Assembly (NCBI GenBank): GCA_019056595.1
Contig: CP036163.1
Coordinates: 1,116,001 to 1,180,000, forward strand
Reading direction: 5' to 3'
Length of the DNA stretch: 64,000 nt
Origin: Pectobacterium atrosepticum
Lineage (GTDB): Bacteria; Pseudomonadota; Gammaproteobacteria; Enterobacterales; Enterobacteriaceae
Shown: positions 6,881 through 43,963 of the stretch, one piece after another
Numbering within the stretch: the stretch's first letter is position 1
Layout of the letters: every line of letters starts with the position of its first letter
Made by a program: the position numbers and the translations under genes
Notes under the pieces: model-generated
Told to the model about the DNA's origin: nothing
Database searches by the model: none
Seen by the model: only the letters and a program-made list of their open reading frames with translations

Positions 6881-9589
6881 TTAACCTGCTTTTTTCAATT
6901 CATTGACCGTTATCGGTACATGCTGGCTCAATAACGCCTTCAGTTCAGGGATACAGGAACCGCAGTTGGTGCCACATTTCAGTGCGCCGCCTAATGCCGC
7001 CACGCTGTGGCATCCTTTACGAATGGCGCCGACAATGATCGCTTCACCGACGCTATAGCAACTGCAAATCGTGGCCCCCTGCGTCACCTGACCTTGCGGT
7101 GCCTGACCCGCCAGCAGAGCATGGCGCTCGTGTGGCAACAGTGGTGGCGTGATAAACGCCTGACGTACCGCATCGCTATCAATATGAAGCGCCTGCGCAC
7201 TGACATAGCAGGCCAAGGCCACGCGGCTCTCGCGCCAGCCAATCAGATGAAATATGCCTTTGCCCTGCGCAATCTGACATTGCATATTTTCCAACCCATA
7301 GTGTTCAGTCAGCCATGCCTGCCAGTCATCTACTGTCGTGCGGTCGGCAAACAGGTACTGCGTCACGCCCTCATGAGGGATCTTGCTCCAATAGGTCGCA
7401 GGCGGAGGCAGAACATCATGCTCTGCGGGTAACGCTAATGGTGATGACATCGGTTCGTCGGCAAAGAATAGCGTGGCCTGCCAGGCGGTATGCCACGGTT
7501 GGATACGCACCCGACTGTGCTTGCTTTCCGGCTGGCCGGAATAAGGATCGGTAATCGGGGAAACTAAACTGTCGACCCGCGACTGAGCGCTGAACTGCTG
7601 ATTCCAATGCATAGGCACAAACACACTACCGCGCGCTTGCCCAGCATCGAGTCGCGCCCGCGCCAGCATCCAACCGTGTACTGACGACAGGCGCACCAGA
7701 TCGCCCGCCTGAATATCATGCGTCTGTGCATCCTGTGGGTGCAGCTCGCAGTAAGGTTCTCTGATATGACGCATCAGCCGAGCGGCTTTACCCGTACGCG
7801 TCATGGTGTGCCACTGATCGCGAATACGCCCGGTGTTCAGCACCAGTGGATACGCCGCACTCCACGGGCTTTGCGGCAGCGACGGCGTTACTGCCACCAA
7901 ATGCGCCTTACTATCGGTATGCCAGAATCGACCATCGTCACCCAGTCGGGCCCGTCCGTGCGGGAATGCCGCATTCACCGGCCACTGTATCGGTTCCAAC
8001 TGCTGCCACTGCTGATTACTGAGCGTCGCCAGCCCGCTGATATCGAACGCACGGCTGCCGTTATTCTCAAACCCAGACAGCGCAGCGTGTTCACGGAAAA
8101 TCTCTGCGGGATGCTGATAAGCAAACGCTTCAGCAAATCCCATGCGCTGCGCAACCTGACTCAACATCCACCAGTCAGCTTTGGCTTCCCCCGGCGCAGG
8201 CAGAAAGGCACGCTGGCGAGACAATCGGCGTTCGGAATTGGTTACCGTGCCGTCTTTTTCCCCCCAGCCTAATGCGGGGAGTAAAATATCGGCAGTTTCT
8301 GTGGTATCGGTATGGCGCATCACCTCGGAGACAATCACCAGCGGGCAACGCTCCAGTGCCAGTTTCACTCGGTCGGCATCCGGCATCGATACCACTGGAT
8401 TGGTGCCCATAATCCACACCGCTTTAATATCGCCACGTTCAATAGCGCGAAACAGATCCACCGCATTCAAACCGGGCTGTGTCGCGACATTATCGCTCTG
8501 CCAGAAGCGCCCAACCCTCTCGATATCCAGCGGCGTAAAGCCCATATGGCTGGCGAGCTGATTGGCTAAACCACCGACTTCCCGACCGCCCATGGCATTT
8601 GGTTGTCCGGTTATCGAAAAGGGGCCTGAACCCGGCACGCCGATTTTGCCGCTCAGCAGATGCGCATTGATGATCGCATTGCACTTATCACTGCCCGAAG
8701 ACGACTGATTAACGCCCTGCGAATAAAGGGTGACCACCTTTTCGCTGGTGCTGAACAGGTGGTAGAAACACTCGATATCGGCGTCATCAAGCTGGCAGAA
8801 ATCTGCCACCTGCGCCACCGACCATGCTTGCGCTGACTGTAGTGCCGCCTCCACACCGGAAAAACGTTCGGCCAGTTCAGTGAGATCGATGCGTGGGTCT
8901 TGTGCAATCCACTGCAGCAGGCCGTTAAACAGCCCTGCATCGCTGCCAGGTTGCAGCGGTAAATGCAGATCGGCGATATCGCAGGTTGCGGTACGTCGCG
9001 GGTCGATCACCACCACCTGCATCTGCGGTCGCTGCTGTTTCGCCTGCGCCAGCCGCTGATACACCACCGGATGCGCCCAGGCGGTATTAGACCCCACCAG
9101 CACCACCACATCCGCTTGTTCAATATCTTCATAATTACAGGGAACGGCATCCGCCCCTAATCCGCGCTTGTAGCCAATCACCGCCGATGCCATGCACAGG
9201 CGTGAGTTGGTATCCATATTGGCGACGCCAATAAAGCCCTTCATCAGCTTATTGGCGACGTAATAATCTTCCGTCAACAGCTGGCCTGAACCATAAAACG
9301 CCACCGACTGCGGGCCGTGCTGCTGCATAGTCGCCAGCAACCGTTCGGCCACCACATCGAGCGCCTGATCCCAACTGACGCGACGCCCTTCCACCAGTGG
9401 CCACAGCAGCCGGCCTTTCAGGTCCAGCGTCTCTCCCAGCGCGGAACCTTTGACACACAGGCGACCAAAGTTAGCTGGGTGCGCCGGATCGCCACTGATC
9501 TTTACCTCGCCTTGCCCGTCGTGTTCTGCCAGCACGCCACAGCCGACGCCACAATACGGGCAGGTTGTCCGACAGACGTGCGCGTTCAT
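6881..9589 (-). CDS. nasA: Assimilatory nitrate reductase catalytic subunit
   Basis: This 902-residue cytoplasmic molybdoenzyme reduces nitrate to nitrite for nitrogen assimilation. An N-terminal [4Fe-4S] motif CPYCGVGC (residues 10-17) leads into the bis-MGD molybdopterin oxidoreductase domain ([23 protein letters not shown]-type segment, [12 protein letters not shown]), followed by a molydopterin-dinucleotide-binding domain ([18 protein letters not shown]). The C-terminus carries a BFD-type [2Fe-2S] domain with CSCYSVGEA and CGTNCGSC, as in Klebsiella NasA. It overlaps the end of the NasC-NirB fusion by four bases (ATGA), so the two are translationally coupled. There is no Tat signal, in agreement with the cytoplasmic assimilatory role. 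Confidence 0.94.
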
Positions 9590-12500
9590 GATGCTTTCGC
9601 CATGTCATTGTCTGCCAGACCGACGCTTTCCGGCACGGCCAGCGGTTGACGGCATACCCAGATTTCGTCGTCTTCCACACGCACCGGCCAGGCGCGAACG
9701 TATAGCGCACTGTCATCCGGGCTGACGCCATCCCGCAGCTTGAAGCGTTTTTTGTACAGCGGAGAAATCACCACCGGTTCACCCGCGACATCACCGATCA
9801 ACCCACGCGACAGCACATTCGCCCCGCTGCCCGGTTCGTGGTTTTCCAACGCGTACACCTGCTGCTCGCTGCCCGGTAGGTGGAACAGCGCGATCTGCTG
9901 CTGTCCGAGACGGGCCGCCATTCCGGCATGACGCGGAATGTCACCCAGCGTTGCTACCTGTACCCATTCCGCTTCATGCGTGGCAGGTTTCAGGACTACC
10001 GGCTCTGTCGATACTGCTTTTTCATGTTCCTGCGCTGGACGAATCTGCCCACGTTCCGGCACCATCACCACCGCCTCATCCGGGCTATCGCTGTTCAGGA
10101 AACCACGGAACAGCGCCAAACGTTCTGGGTTTTCCAGCGTGGTTTGCCATTCGCATTGGTAAGCCTCCACCACGCGCTGCATCTCTTTATCTAACTCTTC
10201 GCCGATATTCAGGCTGTCTTCCAGAATCACCTGTCGCAGATACTCTATTCCGCCTTCCAGATTATCCATCCAGGTGCTGGTACGCTGGAGACGATCGCCG
10301 GTGCGGATATAAAACATCAAGACCCGATCGATGGTGCGCAGCAGAGTTTCGGTATCCAGATCGCTGGCAAAAAGATCCGCATGGCGCGGTTTCATACCGC
10401 CGTTACCACACACGTACAGATTCCAACCTTTGTCCGTGGCAATCACACCAATATCTTTGCTTTGTGCCTCCGCACATTCACGTGTACAGCCGGAAACCGC
10501 CATTTTGACTTTATGCGGCGAGCGCAGCCCCTTATAACGGTGCTCCAGTTGGATCGCCAGCCCAGTCGAATCCTGCACGCCATAGCGGCACCAGGTCGAT
10601 CCCACGCAGGATTTCACGGTACGCAGTGATTTTCCGTAGGCATGACCGGTTTCAAACCCAGCGTCGATCAGCTCACGCCAGATTTCCGGAAGCTGTTCCA
10701 ATCGCGCCCCGAATAAATCCACCCGCTGACCGCCGGTAATCTTGGTGTACAGGTTATAGCGCTGCGCGACCTGACCGATAGCGATCAGCCCAGCTGGGGT
10801 GATTTCCCCTGCGGGAACGCGCGGCACGACGGAATAGGTGCCATCTTTCTGGATGTTGGCAAAGAAACGATCGTTGGTATCCTGCAACGGCAGGTGCTGC
10901 GGTTGTAGCAGGTAGTCATTCCAGCAGGACGCCAGCATCGACCCCACTAGCGGCTTACACACTTCGCAACCTAAACCGTGGCCGTAACGCTCAAGAAGGC
11001 CATCGAACGAGCGGATCTCATGCACGCGGATCAGGTGATACAGCTCCTGACGCGAATAGGCAAAATGCTCGCAAATGTCCTTCTTCACTTCGACGCCCAG
11101 TTGCGTCAGTTCGTACTCCATCACCTGTTTAAGCAGTGGCACACAGCCGCCGCAGCCCGTCCCCGCCTTGGTGCAGGTTTTTAGCGCCCCCAGCTCGCCG
11201 CAGCCACCCGCCACTGCGGCTGAGATGTCGCTTTTGCTGACGTTATGGCAGGAACAGATCTGTGCGCTGGCGGGTAAGGCCGCCACGCCCAGTCCTTTCG
11301 GTGCATCGCCAGAACGCGCCGGTAAAATCAGTCCTTCCGGCTGTTTAGGCAACGGCATATCGTTGAGCATCATTTGCAGCAGCGTGCTGTAATCGCTGCT
11401 GTCGCCAATCAGTACCGCACCCAGCAAATGCTTACCGTCGGCAGACACCACGATTTTCTTGTAGACCTCGTTCGGACCGTCCGTCCACTGGTAGCTTTGG
11501 CTTCCTGCCGTGCGCCCGTGCGCGTCGCCAATCGACGCGACGTCCACGCCCAGCAGCTTCAATTTGGTACTCATATCTGCGCCAGTAAATGGCGTATCAC
11601 GCAGCGCTAACGTATCGGCCACGCTGCGTGCCATCTGGTAGCCCGGAGCTACCAGCCCGAAAATCTGACCTTTCCACAGCGCACATTCGCCGATAGCGAA
11701 AATCGCATCGTCAGAAGTTTGGCAACGGTCATCAATCACGATGCCGCCCCGTGGTCCTTTCTCTAAATCGCAGCTATCCGCCAGTTTGTCGCGTGGACGA
11801 ATGCCAGCGGAAAATAACACTAAGTCGGTTTCCAACACGCTACCGTCGGCAAAGCAGAGACGATGCAACGCCTGCTCGCCGTCGGTAATTTCACGCGTTT
11901 CTTTGCTGACATGAATCTGTACGCCCAGAGCCTCGATCTTGCGGCGTAGCATCGAGGCACCGCCGTCATCCAGCTGTACCGCCATCAGGCGTGGTGCAAA
12001 TTCCACCACATGAGTGTCCAGTCCCAGTTGACGCAGGGCGTTGGCGGCTTCCAGTCCCAGCAAACCGCCGCCAATCACCACACCGGATGTGGCTTTTTTC
12101 GCTTGTGCTGCAATCGCGTCCAGATCGTCTAACGTGCGATAAACCAGACAGCCAGGGCGCGTATTGCCGGGAATCGGTGGAACAAATGCGTAGGACCCCG
12201 TTGCCAGCACCAGTTTGTCGTAGGCGGTTTCTCTACCCTGCGCGTCACACACGCACTGACGTTCACGATCGATCGCCACGATCTCGCTGGTGCTGCGTAA
12301 TTCAATGCCGCTCTCGGCAAAAAAGCCGTCTTTTACCAGTGACAACGAAGCAGCGCTGCGCCCAGAAAAATACTCGGAGAGATGAACACGGTCATAGGCT
12401 TCATAGCGTTCCTCGCCAAATACCACGATGTGGTAATGCTGGTGCAGGTCACGCTCAACCAGCTGTTCAAGAAAATAGTGGCCGACCATACCGTGGCCTA

Positions 12501-34250: not shown

Positions 34251-35843
34251 TTACTGAATACCCTGACTGCGCAGGTAATCTTCGTAGTTACCGGTGAAAT
34301 CGTTCACTTTGTTTGGCGTCATTTCCAGAATACGGGTTGCCAACGAGCTAACAAACTCACGGTCATGAGACACGAACAGCAGCGTCCCTTCATACATTTC
34401 CAGCGCCATGTTCAGCGATTCAATGGATTCCATATCAAGGTGGTTGGTCGGTTCGTCCATTACCAGAATATTCGGACGCTGCATCATCAGCTTACCGAAC
34501 AGCATACGACCCTTTTCACCACCGGATAAGACCTTCACTTTCTTCTTGATATCATCCTGACTGAACAGCAAACGACCGAGCACGCTACGCACCGCCTGTT
34601 CGTCATCTTTTTCCTGTTTCCACTGGCTCATCCAGTCAAACACCGTCAGCGTCTCATCGAATTCGTATTCGTGATCCTGTGCGTAGTAGCCAATTTGAGT
34701 ATTTTCCGACCACTTAACGGTGCCACTATCTGGTGCGAAATCACCGACCAGCGTTTTCAGCAATGTCGATTTACCCACACCGTTGGCACCCAGAATGGCG
34801 ACTTTTTCACCCACTTCGATCATGAGACCCAGCTTGCTGAACAGCGGGCCATTATCAAAACCTTTGGTCAACGCTTCAACTTCCAGCGCATTACGGAACA
34901 GTTTCTTATCCTGATCAAAACGGATAAACGGGTTTTGCCTGCTGGAGGCTTTCACTTCATCCAACTGAATTTTATCGATCTGGCGCGCGCGCGATGTCGC
35001 CTGTTTGGATTTAGAGGCATTGGCGCTAAAGCGGCTAACGAACGATTGCAGTTCGGAAATCTGCGCTTTCTTCTTGGCGTTATCGGACAGTAAACGCTCG
35101 CGAGCCTGCGTCGCGGCCGTCATGTATTCATCATAGTTGCCCGGATAAACACGCAGCTCGCCGTAGTCCAGATCCGCCATATGCGTACAGACCATATTCA
35201 GGAAGTGACGGTCATGCGAGATAATGATCATGGTGCTGTTACGCTCGTTCAGCACCTGCTCCAACCAACGGATAGTATCGATATCCAAGTTGTTGGTCGG
35301 TTCGTCGAGCAGCAGGATTTCAGGATCGGAAAACAGTGCCTGTGCCAACAAGACACGCAGTTTCCAACCGGGAGCAATTTCGCTCATCAAGCCATAGTGC
35401 TGATCAACAGGAATCCCCACACCCAGCAACAGTTCGCCCGCGCGTGATTCCGCGCTATAGCCATCCATCTCACCGTATTCCACTTCCAGATCGGCCACTT
35501 TATAGCCGTCGGCTTCGCTCATTTCAGCCAATGAGTAGATACGGTCGCGCTCTTCTTTTACCGCCCACAGCTCACCGTGGCCCATGATAACGGTATCCAG
35601 CACGCTGTATTTTTCAAACGCGAACTGATCCTGACGCAGTTTACCCAGACGTTCATTAGGATCGAGGAAGACGTTACCGCCGCTCGGCACCAGATCGCCG
35701 CCGAGAATCTTCATAAAGGTGGATTTGCCGCAGCCATTCGCGCCAATCAAACCGTAACGGTTTCCGCCGCCAAATTTAACGGAGATGTTTTCAAACAACG
35801 GCTTGCTGCCGAACTGCATGGTGATATTGTTACTTAATAGCAA
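34251..35843 (-). CDS. ybiT: ABC-F family ATPase YbiT
   Basis: A 530-residue ABC-F protein, one of the ribosome-associated ATPases that act on translation at the E site. Two ABC domains have Walker [11 protein letters not shown] and [10 protein letters not shown], with signature regions ending in Walker [12 protein letters not shown] and [11 protein letters not shown]. The inter-domain linker ([20 protein letters not shown]) matches E. coli YbiT. Alignment to E. coli YbiT (MLVSSNVTMQF) places the start at a TTG codon at 35843, giving the same 530 residues. The longer frame to 35903 would run into the genomic island. Only about 40 native bases remain upstream before the att site. Confidence 0.9.
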
Positions 35844-35870
35844 AGGATTTACTCTTCTCTTATAGAAACG

Positions 35871-35912
35871 TGATTTTGGACACATTATGCCACAAGATAG
35901 CAATGGGATCGC
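35871..35912. other. attL of the genomic island
   Basis: The core CATTATGCCACAAG (35883-35896) is repeated at 43964-43977. On both sides the match goes on at the same offset: GTGATTT twelve bases before the core and GGATCGC nine bases after it. The ATG inside the core is the start codon of the serine recombinase. Confidence 0.85.
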
Positions 35913-37419
35913 CTACAGTTATGTGCGTTTTTCGAGCAAGAAACAGGCATCGGGTGATAGTCTCCGCAGACAAACGGAAATGGCTGAGGAATACGCCAGC
36001 AGACATATGCTGAGACTTTCCAGCAAGAATTTTCAAGATCTGGGGATAAGTGCTTTCCGTGAAGGTAAACGCCCTTCGTTAGCTGATATGCTCACCGCAA
36101 TAGATGAAGGGCAGATTACTGCTGGCTCAACAATTATTATTGAAGCACTGGATCGGCTTTCACGACGTGGCATAGATGTAACACTGGAAACGGTGAAAGA
36201 AATCCTCAGCAAGGATGTGCAAATCGTTAGTTTGTCTGATGGATTGGTTTTGACTAAAAGCAGCCTAAATGAGTTGCAAAGCGTTATTCGAATCGCTTTA
36301 GCCGCCGACCTTGCTTACAAAGAATCAGAGCGTAAAGCGCAACGTCTGCGAGAAACCAAAGGACAGCAGCGACAAGATGCACTTAACGGCATACCTATCA
36401 ATAAAATCCTCCCTTTTTGGCTAAAGCGCACTGAAACGGGATACGCGTTCAGCGACAAAGTGGAAACGGCTAGGCAGATAGTCACGCTCAAGCAAGAGGG
36501 TAAAGGTAGCAATATGATAGCTAAATTTCTCAATAAACAGGGCATAGCAGGGATTCGTACAGCACAATGGAATCATGCATCAATAACTAAAATGCTAAAG
36601 AACCCAGCGTTATATGGTGCCTATCAGACGGGGGAAACGAACAAAGAAAGAGAAATGATCCAACTAGAGATAGTAGAAGGATACTACCCTGCCCTGATCA
36701 GTAAAGATGAGTGGTTGTTACTTCAATCTGACCAAAGCAAATCCACGCGAGGACGCCGTAGCACTGATAATCCTTATAGTGGTCTATTACGCTGTGGATG
36801 CGGTGGTGCATTAATAAAAAGAAAGAGCACGGTAAGAGGGAAACTGTACGTTTATCATGGTTGCCTAAACGCCAAAGATGGTCGTTGTTCTCAAAATCTC
36901 TCGATCAAAGGATTAGATGACGCATTAGCAACTATGCTGGGTCGGCTAGAGTTCAAAAAGGCTGTTACGTCTGACAGATCAGCCTATCTTGAAAAAAAAC
37001 AGCTTGAGAAGAGAATAGCTAATCTAAACATCACGTTACAGGAAGTTGATGAAGTCCCTTCGTCTGTCATTAAAACAATCAGTACAATGGAAGCACGCGT
37101 AAAAGAAATAACAGAGCAGCAAGCAAAAATTGAGCGAGAACAGCGTGGCATTGACGCCGTCAATAACGCAAAGCTATCAAGTATCACTGATAGTTTAGAG
37201 CTTAATCTTATGCTAAAACGGGTTTTAAAAAGCATCACGGTAACTCGCTCAGGATCTAGTTGGGCAGTGAGAATTTTTCATCTATCAGGCCATACACAGA
37301 GCTTCATGCTAGACAATGGAAAACTCAAATTTGTGAGCGATTCGATCGCGATGCAAAGATTATTGGCTGAATTTACTGAAGACAATCAAACCTCGTCTTA
37401 TGAACCAATTTATGATTAA
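35887..37419 (+). CDS. Large serine recombinase of the genomic island
   Basis: A 510-residue site-specific recombinase. The resolvase domain starts [20 protein letters not shown] with the catalytic Ser at residue 16, and has [10 protein letters not shown] with the active-site Arg pair. A recombinase domain follows ([19 protein letters not shown]), then a zinc ribbon ([15 protein letters not shown] and [12 protein letters not shown], near residues 300-340) and a coiled coil (about 365-420). Enzymes of this type integrate and excise DNA between short att sites without high homology. The ATG lies in the att core, so the gene keeps a start codon in both the integrated and circular states, while the sequence upstream of it changes. 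No good ribosome binding site is visible on the ybiT side. Confidence 0.92.
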
Positions 37420-37493: not shown

Positions 37494-38153
37494 TCATTTT
37501 CGTAAACTTTTATTATCAGTAGACAATTTTTTTATTATATAAAACTTATTATCAAGAATGTTATCAATATATTTCTTCCTACCGACTATTTTTTTATTAT
37601 CATTCGGTTTCTCGTTCTTTTTTGTGGGATATTTCAACCTCGCAATTAACTCACTTGCATCTTGTTTATCAGTATCTGACAAACTTAAAAAACCAATTTT
37701 TTCATAACCAAAATATGCACAACTTAAATAAGCCTTACCTATATCTTTTTTGTTTTTAATCTTGTAATTTAACAATATAGCAATCGCCTGTTCTCTTATC
37801 TTTCGGCGTAGGGTTCGCTCATATCTTCCGGTCAGAGTTCTAACCAATTGTTGATCTATTGTACTTCCTCCTTGTATGACATTTTGGGTTAATCTTAAAT
37901 ACACACACCGAATAATAGCTATTGGATCAAGGCCAAAATGAATACTACTCCTATGATCTTCAGCTATGACTAAAACATAATAATAGTAGTCATCTATCAT
38001 GGAGAAATGTTCTTTTTCATTATTAATGAAATCGACACATTTAGTTAAATCACTAGCAATTTTTCTATTGAAGCATGAAAACATAGTGACAATAAAAAAA
38101 GGTATAGTAAGTATGATTAATAAAACTCTCATTTCTTTAATGAAACTTTTCAT
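37494..38153 (-). CDS. GT51 monofunctional peptidoglycan transglycosylase-like protein
   Basis: This 219-residue protein has one N-terminal membrane helix (about residues 9-27) and a GT51 domain like that of MtgA and class A PBPs, which polymerise lipid II. Motif 1 is AEDHRSSIHFG (64-74), with the catalytic Glu65 but a Ser where Phe is usual. Motif 2 is QGGSTIDQQLVRT (94-106), with Asp where Thr is usual. Motif 3 is RRKIREQ with the second Glu121. The catalytic residues are kept, but the deviations and the short C-terminus, rich in Lys and Asn, set it apart from housekeeping enzymes. It overlaps the upstream membrane gene by 17 bases. It is AT-rich, island-borne and surely acquired. Role unknown; envelope modification or a defence effector are possible. 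Confidence 0.78.
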   Translation of the reverse strand: MKSFIKEMRVLLIILTIPFFIVTMFSCFNRKIASDLTKCVDFINNEKEHFSMIDDYYYYVLVIAEDHRSSIHFGLDPIAIIRCVYLRLTQNVIQGGSTIDQQLVRTLTGRYERTLRRKIREQAIAILLNYKIKNKKDIGKAYLSCAYFGYEKIGFLSLSDTDKQDASELIARLKYPTKKNEKPNDNKKIVGRKKYIDNILDNKFYIIKKLSTDNKSLRK

Positions 38154-38673
38154 TTTGGAATACAGCAATTCCATTAGCATCTGCAGCTGTTGTAGTAAAA
38201 ACTCCCGTAGTTTTATATTTGGCTTTATCCAAACTTACAACTAAGGATGATGGTCTCTGTACTCCATTTGGGTCACCATCTAAAGAAATGTGTATATTAG
38301 CTTTATTAAATCTCAAATAATATCTTTCTATTGTTAATATTACATTCCCTACATTTCTATCTTTACCTGTGTATTTTCTATGAAAACCTGTATTTTCTAT
38401 ATCATAAATCTTTTCTATTTTCCCAATTACCTTTGTTGCGGATTCATTAATTAATGTGAGCACAAAAAAAGAAGATAGCCCCTTGTAATCTTCTTTTTTA
38501 GAATTTTCCGTAGTTATTTTAAGATAAAAAACCCCAGAGAATGATGGTGGTTTTTTAAATACATCTTTAACAAAAAAAACAAAGAAAGTGCTAATAAAAA
38601 AAACTAAAAGTCCAGCTATAAAACTTCCTAAGTTAGTCGAAGAGGAAGCGAAGCAGTTGAGCGACTCAATCAT
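38137..38673 (-). CDS. Membrane-anchored beta-rich protein, partner of the GT51 gene
   Basis: A 178-residue protein with no recognised family. One membrane helix (about residues 15-36) is followed by a beta-rich domain with alternating strands: SGVFYLKITTE, SSFFVLTLINES, ILTIERYYLRF, ANIHISLDG, TTGVFTTTAADANGIAVFQ. The layout of a helix followed by a small G-x-F/W-x-G-type beta barrel recalls lipocalin-like sensor or effector domains, but no sequence family could be assigned. The ATG at 38673 has a strong AGGAG seven bases upstream. It overlaps the GT51 gene, so the two form a coupled pair. A pentanucleotide repeat lies 70-105 bases upstream of its start. Confidence 0.7.
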   Translation of the reverse strand: MIESLNCFASSSTNLGSFIAGLLVFFISTFFVFFVKDVFKKPPSFSGVFYLKITTENSKKEDYKGLSSFFVLTLINESATKVIGKIEKIYDIENTGFHRKYTGKDRNVGNVILTIERYYLRFNKANIHISLDGDPNGVQRPSSLVVSLDKAKYKTTGVFTTTAADANGIAVFQNEKFH

Positions 38674-38743
38674 ATGGTATCTCCTATCACGATCCATAAA
38701 TGATAAAATAGATATCCAAATCGATAAAGTATGGAATTCAGGT

Positions 38744-40923: not shown

Positions 40924-42294
40924 ATGGATATGAAATATAAAAATCTGATGTTCCCCAGTAGTTCTATCAGTGCTTTAATCGCATCGCAGGAGACTATTGC
41001 TGAGAAATATAAAAATCTGATGTCTCCCAGTAGTTCTATCAGTGCTTTAATCGCAACGCAGGATACTATTGCTGAGAAATATAAAAACCTGATGTCTCCC
41101 AGTAGTTCTATCAGTGCTTTAATCGCAACGCAGGATACTATTGCAGATAAATATAAAAACCTGATGTTTCCCAGTAGTTCTATCAGTGCTTTAAGCGCAT
41201 CGCAGGATACTATTGCTGAGAAATATAAAAATCTGATGTTGCCCAGTAGTTCTATCAGTGCTTTAATCGCAACGCAGGATACTATTTCAGAGAAATATAA
41301 AAACCTGATGTTTCCCAGTAGTTCTATCAGTGCTTTAATCGCATCGCAGGATACTATTGCTGAGAAATATAAAAATCTGATGTCTCCCAGTAGTTCTATC
41401 AGTGCTTTAATCGCATCGCAGGAGACTATTGCAGAGAAATATAAAAACCTGATGTTTCCCAGTAGTTCTATCAGTGCTTTAATCGCAACGCAGGATACTA
41501 TTGCAGAGAAATATAAAAACCTGATGTTTCCCAGTAGTTCTATCAGTGCTTTAATCGCAACGCAGGATACTATTGCTGAGAAATATAAAAATCTGATGTC
41601 TCCCAGTAGTTTGATCAATGCTTTAGTTCGTCCACGGACATCTGGAGAAGGTGAACTTAACTCAATAAAAGTATTGTACAACTCAGTCAATAGCTATTTA
41701 GATAACATCAGTGCCGAAGAGTTAAATTCTATTGTCAATGTGGCAAATATTTATACAAGCACCGCTGAAGGTGCTGCGTATATAGCACAAAGTACTCAGG
41801 ATTTTAACGAAATCGAACCAGATGCAATTACTAAACTCCAAGAGTTTAAAGATAAAAGCTCGTATGTTAAAAAATTCAGAGAGTTGCCTATAGTAATACA
41901 ATTGATAGTTTATTATTTCATAATGCATATTATTTTCCCTATTGCTGAAGATAAGATAAAAGCTGAAGCTCTTGAGCTTTTTAATAAGAGTGGAGATTTA
42001 ATTATTCAATCTTTATCTATAAATTCCTATATAAAAGAACTTGTCTCCAATAAGAATGAAACTGTCAATTGGGAAGTATTGAAAGATTTCAGGGTCATCA
42101 CCGCTGATAGCGTTAGATTACGCGATAAACCTTCAATGCAAGGCGAAGTTATAGAAACGATTAAAAAATACTCTGTTGTTGCAGTTTTAGATAAAAGCAA
42201 TAAGAAATGGCTTTATGTTAAAATATCCTTAAATGGCGAACAAACTACTGGGTGGGTGAATAGAATTTATACAAAACCATTAAATAAATATTAA
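40924..42294 (+). CDS. 24-residue tandem-repeat protein with SH3b domain
   Basis: A 456-residue protein of unknown function. Residues 4-219 are nine near-identical 24-residue units of the form KYKNLMSPSSSISALIATQD plus TIAE, and a tenth degenerate unit runs to residue 243. Each unit is 72 bp and almost identical at DNA level, so the copy number is likely unstable. Residues 244-388 are mostly helical, with a hydrophobic segment LPIVIQLIVYYFIMHIIFPI at about 321-340 that could cross or bind a membrane. Residues 389-452 are an SH3b domain (TADSVRLRDKPSMQGEVIET, WLYVKI, GWVNRIYTKPL), a fold that often binds peptidoglycan or proline peptides. It is AT-rich island cargo, with a GAGAG before the ATG. 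Confidence 0.8.
   Translation: MDMKYKNLMFPSSSISALIASQETIAEKYKNLMSPSSSISALIATQDTIAEKYKNLMSPSSSISALIATQDTIADKYKNLMFPSSSISALSASQDTIAEKYKNLMLPSSSISALIATQDTISEKYKNLMFPSSSISALIASQDTIAEKYKNLMSPSSSISALIASQETIAEKYKNLMFPSSSISALIATQDTIAEKYKNLMFPSSSISALIATQDTIAEKYKNLMSPSSLINALVRPRTSGEGELNSIKVLYNSVNSYLDNISAEELNSIVNVANIYTSTAEGAAYIAQSTQDFNEIEPDAITKLQEFKDKSSYVKKFRELPIVIQLIVYYFIMHIIFPIAEDKIKAEALELFNKSGDLIIQSLSINSYIKELVSNKNETVNWEVLKDFRVITADSVRLRDKPSMQGEVIETIKKYSVVAVLDKSNKKWLYVKISLNGEQTTGWVNRIYTKPLNKY
40933..41580 (+). repeat. Nine 72-bp coding tandem repeats
   Basis: Nine direct repeats of 72 bp in frame with the 456-residue protein, differing mainly at a few codons (TTC/TCT/TTG at one site, GCA/TCG at another). 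The pattern of shared variants between non-adjacent units points to past duplication and gene conversion. Confidence 0.92.
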
Positions 42295-43485: not shown

Positions 43486-43963
43486 TAGAAAAACCTTATC
43501 ATTATCATAAAATCAAATAGTTAAGTCCATTTAGCAAAAAGAGTGGGTAAGACAAACTGCTTTTTACAACCAGACGAAGTATAGCATCCCCACACCTTTA
43601 AATCTATTAAATCTATCAATATCAATTTATCGATCGTTTTTACAGATCGATAAATTGATTAAAATCTCTTCACATTTTGCCTTATCAGGGCCATGTAGCT
43701 TAATCCATTGTTTAAATTGATATATTTCTCAAATTAGCCCTTCACATCAATTAATTCATGGCGGCTGTGAGGGATACAGTGCACATGCAGGAAAAAATCA
43801 CAACCAACTAAAGCCAGACGGTGCAATTCGTCTATGCGATGACAATGGGGAGCGGGTATGAAGGTATGGCAGAAAAATATTATTACCACATATGAAACTG
43901 CATGGTGATATTGTTGGTACTTAACACAGCACTTATACTCGAGTCGGAATGTGATTTGGCGCG
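43486..43963. other. Right end of the island, no clear gene
   Basis: No gene can be supported. A rightward open frame near 43730-43860 ends in GAIRLCDDNGERV and might be the end of a lost gene. A leftward frame of 80 codons from 43976 begins at a TTG inside the att core and is not convincing. The stretch also holds the 15-bp inverted repeat listed next. Confidence 0.35.
43621..43659. repeat. 15-bp perfect inverted repeat
   Basis: ATCAATTTATCGATC (43621-43635) and GATCGATAAATTGAT (43645-43659) are perfect inverted copies around a 9-base centre. It could be a bidirectional terminator or a protein-binding site near the right end of the island, such as one for an excision factor. Confidence 0.7.

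Follow-up and report, generated by a model that had tools for sequence, protein, structure and literature searches.

A mobile compact GT51 glycosyltransferase with exchangeable partners as a candidate regulator-effector module in Pectobacterium atrosepticum

A mobile island in Pectobacterium atrosepticum carries a compact peptidoglycan glycosyltransferase of the GT51 family whose gene overlaps that of a membrane-anchored beta-barrel protein. Judged from the aligned relatives, the GT51 is the constant element of these loci and its partner is exchangeable. Two types were distinguished: in type A, found in the window (the whole 64,000-nucleotide stretch of DNA analysed here), the GT51 is accompanied by the barrel protein, and in type B by a minimal Pol-beta-type nucleotidyltransferase. 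As the GT51 is constant and the partner changes, the simplest reading is that the GT51 is an effector held by a barrel or nucleotidyltransferase regulator. We tentatively favour the view, to which we give somewhat less than an even chance, that the pair represents one version of a mobile regulator-effector module in which a GT51 at the inner face of the membrane would be freed by a phage signal or by loss of the regulator and would block wall synthesis. The features on which the analysis is based are collected in Table 1.

Table 1. Features of the island and of the gene pair, in window coordinates.
Feature	Position	Strand	Details and basis
Island left end, 20-base direct repeat, in 5' codons of ybiT-like gene	35812..35831	+	Empty site in G987 and G991
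Large serine recombinase of the island	35887..37419	+	Resolvase and Recombinase Pfam domains
Compact GT51 (peptidoglycan glycosyltransferase) gene	37494..38180	-	Longest ORF 228 aa; 219 aa from the tenth codon (ATG)
GT51 motif 3, R126-E130 (RKIRE), second catalytic Glu	37791..37805	-	Alignment of 85 relatives
GT51 motif 2, G104-Q111 (GGSTIDQQ)	37848..37871	-	Alignment of 85 relatives
GT51 motif 1, E74-D85 (EDHRSSIHFGLD), first catalytic Glu	37926..37961	-	Alignment of 85 relatives
GT51 hydrophobic N-terminal segment (residues 19-37), central proline	38070..38126	-	Hydrophobicity
Membrane-anchored 8-strand beta-barrel protein	38137..38697	-	186 aa (178 from the ninth codon); AlphaFold2 pLDDT 92.3
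Eight-strand barrel (residues 55-181), predicted cytosolic	38155..38535	-	AlphaFold2 model
Membrane helix of the barrel protein (residues 23-47)	38557..38631	-	AlphaFold2 model
Island right end, same 20-base repeat	43896..43915	+	Empty site in G987 and G991

The coupling of the two genes extends well beyond the window. The first-pass annotation had reported an overlap of 17 bases, which holds with the start codon it used; between the longest ORFs the overlap is 44 bases, with the barrel gene upstream of the GT51 gene. When 84,980 collected genomes were scanned with a GT51 profile, at least 491 relatives were found; the best 80 of these were analysed, therefore more distant GT51s may have other partners. 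Among the best 80, the barrel gene was directly upstream of the GT51 in 39, barrel and GT51 were fused in two (L067 and L068), and a nucleotidyltransferase gene followed on the same strand with a gap of less than 150 bases in 38. The one locus in which no partner was found by HMM (L080) has an N-terminus that, by eye, is similar to the end of the L067 barrel. The ten relatives from viral contigs, which include three near-identical pairs, comprised seven of type A, two of type B and one of neither type. With a partner at 79 of the best 80 of at least 491 genome relatives and at 9 of 10 viral loci, the examined enzymes are not solitary, the coupling proposed earlier is upheld and a chance neighbourhood of the two genes is ruled out. 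Overlap of the two genes was seen in 43 of 46 loci of type A and in 34 of 40 of type B. When the barrel was used as the only query in a search of the order, all five matches adjoined a compact GT51. The pair is patchy and rare, present for example in 4 of 295 genomes of the order (window genome included), and barrel profiles matched the window genome only, both among 369 genomes of the class and among 398 of the phylum. No pair of nucleotidyltransferase and GT51 was found in unbiased samples of 398 and 150 genomes.

Partners and enzymes have also diverged together. Distances between partners correlate with those between GT51s (r 0.59 for 46 type A pairs and 0.77 for 39 type B pairs), and none of 2000 permutations gave as high a value in either type, although the correlation may in part be due to shared host descent. 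These tests excluded six near-copies, as well as L067, L068 and L100 in type A and the truncated L071 and L085 in type B. In a tree of the GT51s (without five near-copies; two of the three canonical proteins sought by motif were found) the partner label changes 6 times, compared to a mean of 35 in shuffles. The two fusions carry a barrel, yet their GT51 domains cluster with type B or adjoin it, and one locus, L100, holds both partner types. In L100 the GT51 and nucleotidyltransferase genes are convergent with the barrel gene (L100:6887-8739), and a large adjoining ORF (8838-10718) appears by eye to encode a NERD/UvrD helicase.

The window enzyme is clearly a member of the GT51 family: its Pfam Transgly match (2.4e-20) scores 73.1 bits against a cut-off of 27, and its nearest relatives in the PDB are PBP1A and a monofunctional glycosyltransferase. 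Its match covers only positions 19-124 of the 178 in the Transgly profile, compared to 25-176 in the fusion L067. The two catalytic glutamates, previously numbered E65 and E121, are indeed present (E74 and E130 of the longest ORF). They are invariant in an alignment of 85 rows, as are D75, R77 and D85 of motif 1, G104, S106, T107, I108 and Q111 of motif 2, R126 and K127 of motif 3, and R201; H81 and G83 are found in 84 of 85. These rows include the window enzyme itself, and much of motif 2 was also fixed by the pattern of the genome scan. With neither catalytic glutamate lost and the main motif residues fully conserved, the enzyme is, on sequence grounds, probably active. The substitutions that the first-pass annotation had pointed out in motifs 1 and 2 exist, but the two differ in meaning. 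Serine in place of phenylalanine follows a trend of the barrel-linked type, in which 9 of 46 GT51s retain F or Y compared to 33 of 38 of the other type. Aspartate in place of threonine is in line with the relatives, which carry E, A or D; this agreement is no independent evidence, because the scan pattern imposed [EDA] at that position.

Compact GT51s share with MtgA and the glycosyltransferase domain of class A PBPs a Pfam score above the cut-off as well as the catalytic glutamates and motif residues. Unlike these, they are partner-linked and mobile, have an arginine after the ED pair of motif 1 (EDxR, in 85 of 85 compact rows) and, in most type B members, have no membrane helix. A housekeeping MtgA or a PBP fragment was rejected as an explanation of the window gene, as three near-full-length GT51 matches occur in the genome in addition to the two compact ones, and as the compact family is set apart by a signature and partners of its own.

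For the barrel protein, one membrane helix and a beta-rich domain had been proposed, and the AlphaFold2 model agrees with this, adding an N-terminal helix at residues 3-18 before the long helix (23-47) and the eight main strands. In Pfam, PADLOC, NCBIfam and PHROGs nothing matched the protein at E <= 1, and no match was found among 50,697 phage records. It matched none of the housekeeping envelope families covered by the libraries searched. Neither the barrel protein nor the GT51 matched in PADLOC-DB 2.0.0 at E <= 1. Of the phage records, 17 matched the GT51, all below 60% identity, and a single match extended over 80% of the query; where annotated these are PBP or mgt genes.

The location of the pair on a mobile island, which had been assumed, was confirmed by the 20-base direct repeats bounding about 8.1 kb and by the empty site in the genus-mates G987 and G991. 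The target gene is ybiT-like. Both genes lie in an AT-rich stretch (G+C 0.32, compared to about 0.53 to either side), and the other genes of the island encode the serine recombinase, transposases of the IS110 and IS4/5 types, and an SH3-domain repeat protein. Several further observations were made on the island. Its insertion point lies within the 5' codons of the ybiT-like gene (window 35812-35903), whose first codons and promoter the island seems to replace while preserving the frame. The SH3-domain protein, between two IS elements (window 40924-42294), begins with ten tandem repeats of 24 residues, in which KYKNLM recurs at a spacing of exactly 24, and over the repeats the opposite strand is also open (276-aa ORF). 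A 96% identical copy of the recombinase gene and island end occurs with different neighbours elsewhere in the same genome (L125:3441-4943). In the genus-mate G188 the sequence at ybiT matches the island side up to window position 36001 and has other genes beyond (L123:1402-1597), therefore the ybiT site may be a hotspot.

Other copies are likewise found on mobile elements. A DNA match to a plasmid-borne pair was found in 5 of 5,426 E. coli genomes; four of these were examined, and the fifth record shares its length and coordinates with one of the four. In a P2-like prophage the pair is located between the tail fibre assembly and tail sheath genes, in two prophages between the antiterminator Q and a lambda-family holin, and in the fourth genome on an integrase island, and the E. 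coli plasmid copy is in a similar integrase region. In P2, the gene fun lies between G and FI. An Aliarcobacter plasmid bears a type B pair, and on a viral contig (L024) such a pair follows a gene that, by eye, we take to be P2 gpD-like. The window genome itself has a second, diverged pair (L013:8329-12206), with 33% identity in the barrel and 42% in the GT51, near genes for a P4-alpha-like primase, AlpA, AbiEi with a short AbiEii-like ORF, a ParE toxin and a Phd/YefM-type antitoxin. The region is a probable P4-like satellite.

Excerpts of PMC9122126 and PMC9519451 describe P2-like prophages and P4-like satellites as carrying anti-phage cargo in hotspots, and our copies are similar to such cargo in that one is in a P2-like prophage and one in the probable P4-like satellite beside AbiE genes. 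The P2-like copy differs in its place, since the hotspot described in the excerpt of PMC9122126 lies between Q and A; the excerpt of PMC9519451 mentions a second P2 locus, holding fun. The word transglycosylase is absent from the main texts of both. The defence role suggested in the first-pass annotation thus gains from context (the position in the P2-like prophage, the positions between Q and holin, and the probable satellite beside AbiE genes), but not from the neighbours in general, as a PADLOC scan found no clear enrichment in 136 nearest ORFs (of 153, with 17 left out) compared to all 90 farther ones, when matches were tallied by family and not by ORF. Matches of the nearest ORFs were led by five UvrD-like helicases, three of them with a NERD domain by Pfam, and some restriction genes (among the 25 of 139 families listed), and the farther ORFs hold such genes too (among the 25 of 58 families listed).

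The side of the membrane on which the enzyme is located separates our preferred reading from its strongest alternative. Lipid II is described in an excerpt of PMC6053597 as being made on the inner leaflet, flipped and then polymerised outside by membrane-anchored synthases. In type A GT51s, N-terminal hydrophobicity reaches at least 1.6 in 40 of 46, compared to 2 of 40 in type B, and the hydrophobic segment is 19-25 residues long (45 examined). It is flanked by 2.4 and 2.6 K/R on its two sides, with more after it in 25 of 51 and equal numbers in 5, a count that includes near-copies. As the charges are about equal, the enzyme of the window may be a periplasmic GT51 of the ordinary kind. The pair would then be a superinfection or wall-modifying moron, whose GT51 alters the wall locally from the periplasm and so blocks DNA entry or counters the lysis of other phages, with the barrel anchoring or regulating it from the cytosol. 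The location of two prophage copies directly before holin and endolysin genes would suit such a role. We nevertheless find this explanation unlikely. The segment is absent in 38 of 40 type B GT51s and after the barrel in the fusions L067 and L068, and a periplasmic enzyme would be apart from its cytosolic partner: the barrel helix has more K/R after than before it in 44 of 48 homologues, equal numbers in three and fewer in one, in a count that is non-redundant. Also, a proline is found in the central half of the segment in 42 of 45 barrel-linked GT51s, unlike in the barrel-protein helices (3 of 49), and such a segment fits, as far as sequence can tell, a kinked or re-entrant anchor. In L067 and L068, hydrophobicity between the barrel and the GT51 peaks at 0.63 and 1.3, too low for a span that crosses the membrane, so the two domains probably share one side. 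The GT51s of these fusions are those that cluster with type B or adjoin it, thus their topology may not apply to the window. From these features together we tentatively infer a cytosolic placement of the type A enzyme.

In the regulator-effector reading that we prefer, the compact GT51 would be the effector, an enzyme whose catalytic residues are intact and which would be kept on or close to the cytosolic side of the inner membrane. Its regulator would be the membrane-anchored, Cap15-like barrel in type A or the minimal Pol-beta-type nucleotidyltransferase in type B. In a resting cell the regulator would hold the GT51 off, and a phage signal or loss of the regulator would free it. The freed enzyme would polymerise or sequester lipid II of the inner leaflet before flipping, wall synthesis would stop, and the infection would end along with the cell. 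A cytosolic GT51 would meet lipid II only on the inner leaflet, and consumption of lipid II there would starve or poison wall synthesis. We infer the inhibition by the partner, lipid II as the substrate, the phage trigger and the outcome from the arrangement of the loci. The earlier idea that the beta domain senses a signal and the enzyme disturbs the wall is thus borne out in the coupling, and in its other two parts, sensing and the effect on the wall, it stays a proposal. Epsilon-zeta (PezAT) toxins are mobile conflict effectors directed against cytosolic wall precursors. Min-Wnt effectors are proposed, in an excerpt of PMC12419801, to attack lipid II before flipping. The enzymes of both are unrelated to those studied here, where the candidate effector is a glycan polymerase and not a kinase or a lipid head-group domain.

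Two overlapping genes on plasmids, prophages and islands, with a patchy and rare distribution (the 4 of 295 genomes of the order) and with exchangeable partners, could also be an addiction (toxin-antitoxin) module, in which a toxic GT51 is neutralised by its partner mainly to stabilise the element. We regard this as rather improbable, because it would be unusual for an antidote to have a membrane anchor, as the type A partner does, and in some cases (L067, L068) to be fused to its enzyme. Many toxin-antitoxin pairs defend the cell, and an addiction reading would be compatible with defence.

The structure of the barrel brings up nucleotide-signalling immunity like CBASS or Panoptes, in which the nucleotidyltransferase would make a signal, the barrel would bind one and the GT51 would be the gated effector. 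In the model, the C-terminal domain has the eight-strand barrel fold of Cap15 and other S-2TM-beta proteins, members of which are described in an excerpt of PMC12657218 as disrupting the membrane. The third-ranked BFVD match is a viral SMODS-associated 2TM-beta protein (E 0.01). The barrel resembles the Cap15 receptor, but avidins score nearly as high and Cap15 is absent from the best 50 Foldseek matches. Cap15_CD_rec was not among the Pfam matches of 42 barrel homologues at E <= 0.1, and hhalign gave 24% against four Cap15 proteins, a weak test with a profile of four sequences. Compared to Cap15 of CBASS and OptE of Panoptes, the window protein has one clear membrane helix and the short N-terminal helix, and it adjoins a GT51 gene with no nucleotide synthase gene beside it. 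Unlike in CBASS, no CD-NTase gene is next to the barrel gene of the window, whose neighbours on the island encode recombinase, GT51, transposase and SH3-repeat proteins.

The type B partner is in turn a single short domain of about 220 aa in which G80, D102 and D104 are invariant and D160 nearly so, and these residues speak for a signalling role, as does the presence of both partners in L100. It differs from CD-NTases, AbiEii and other Pol-beta nucleotidyltransferases in this single domain and in having no profile kinship to two CBASS nucleotidyltransferases (L109 and L111; hhalign 2.5%, a weak test with a profile of two sequences). In 39 type B partners no convincing Pfam match was found (best E 0.0038), and AbiEii was not among their matches at E <= 0.1. 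One of four tested gave a PADLOC cyclase match (E 0.0054), and fold searches with the nucleotidyltransferase found no close known relative. These few-sequence profiles therefore lend no support to placing the barrel in Cap15, or the nucleotidyltransferase in the CD-NTases, by sequence. Together with the single kind of partner at all partnered loci but one, and with no match to the nucleotidyltransferase in the window genome, this makes nucleotide signalling improbable as the function of the pair.

Finally, a shield against lipid II-directed bacteriocins or antibiotics, with the extra polymerase or lipid II binder protecting the wall, would agree with a mobile GT51 having an intact active site and with the plasmid location of some copies, but is highly improbable, as cytosolic type B enzymes would be unable to protect flipped lipid II and no bacteriocin annotation was found in the six neighbourhoods examined.

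When the type B nucleotidyltransferase was searched with its own profile, all four proteins found adjoined GmrSD_N genes. These minimal nucleotidyltransferases form a two-gene unit with GmrSD_N (DUF262) in four genomes (L115:236-1833, L116:1408-3060, L127:1366-3016 and L128:186-1851), which is possibly a further undescribed system. A broader view, in which a cytosol-facing GT51 is an immune effector acting on unflipped lipid II under interchangeable regulators and the nucleotidyltransferase also gates GmrSD_N effectors, is one that we offer with more reserve, as a possibility of roughly a third.

The general kind of system, a mobile conflict pair of regulator and effector, is known, whereas the effector chemistry and both regulator families appear to be undescribed: no description of a GT51 conflict module was found among the matches listed, in titles and the starts of abstracts, in the open-licence PMC literature. 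If the reading of the pair as a regulator-effector module is true, the polymerisation of wall precursors inside the cell would join the known ways of stopping phage, and two regulator families with no convincing Pfam match would be defined. It would also allow a direct test of the use of lipid II on the wrong side of the membrane, and it would account for the presence in prophages and plasmids of some genes annotated as transglycosylase domain-containing. In case the broader view of a cytosol-facing immune GT51 is true as well, these loci would make up a family of conflict systems built from modules, in which the chemistry of the effector and both families of regulators are undescribed.
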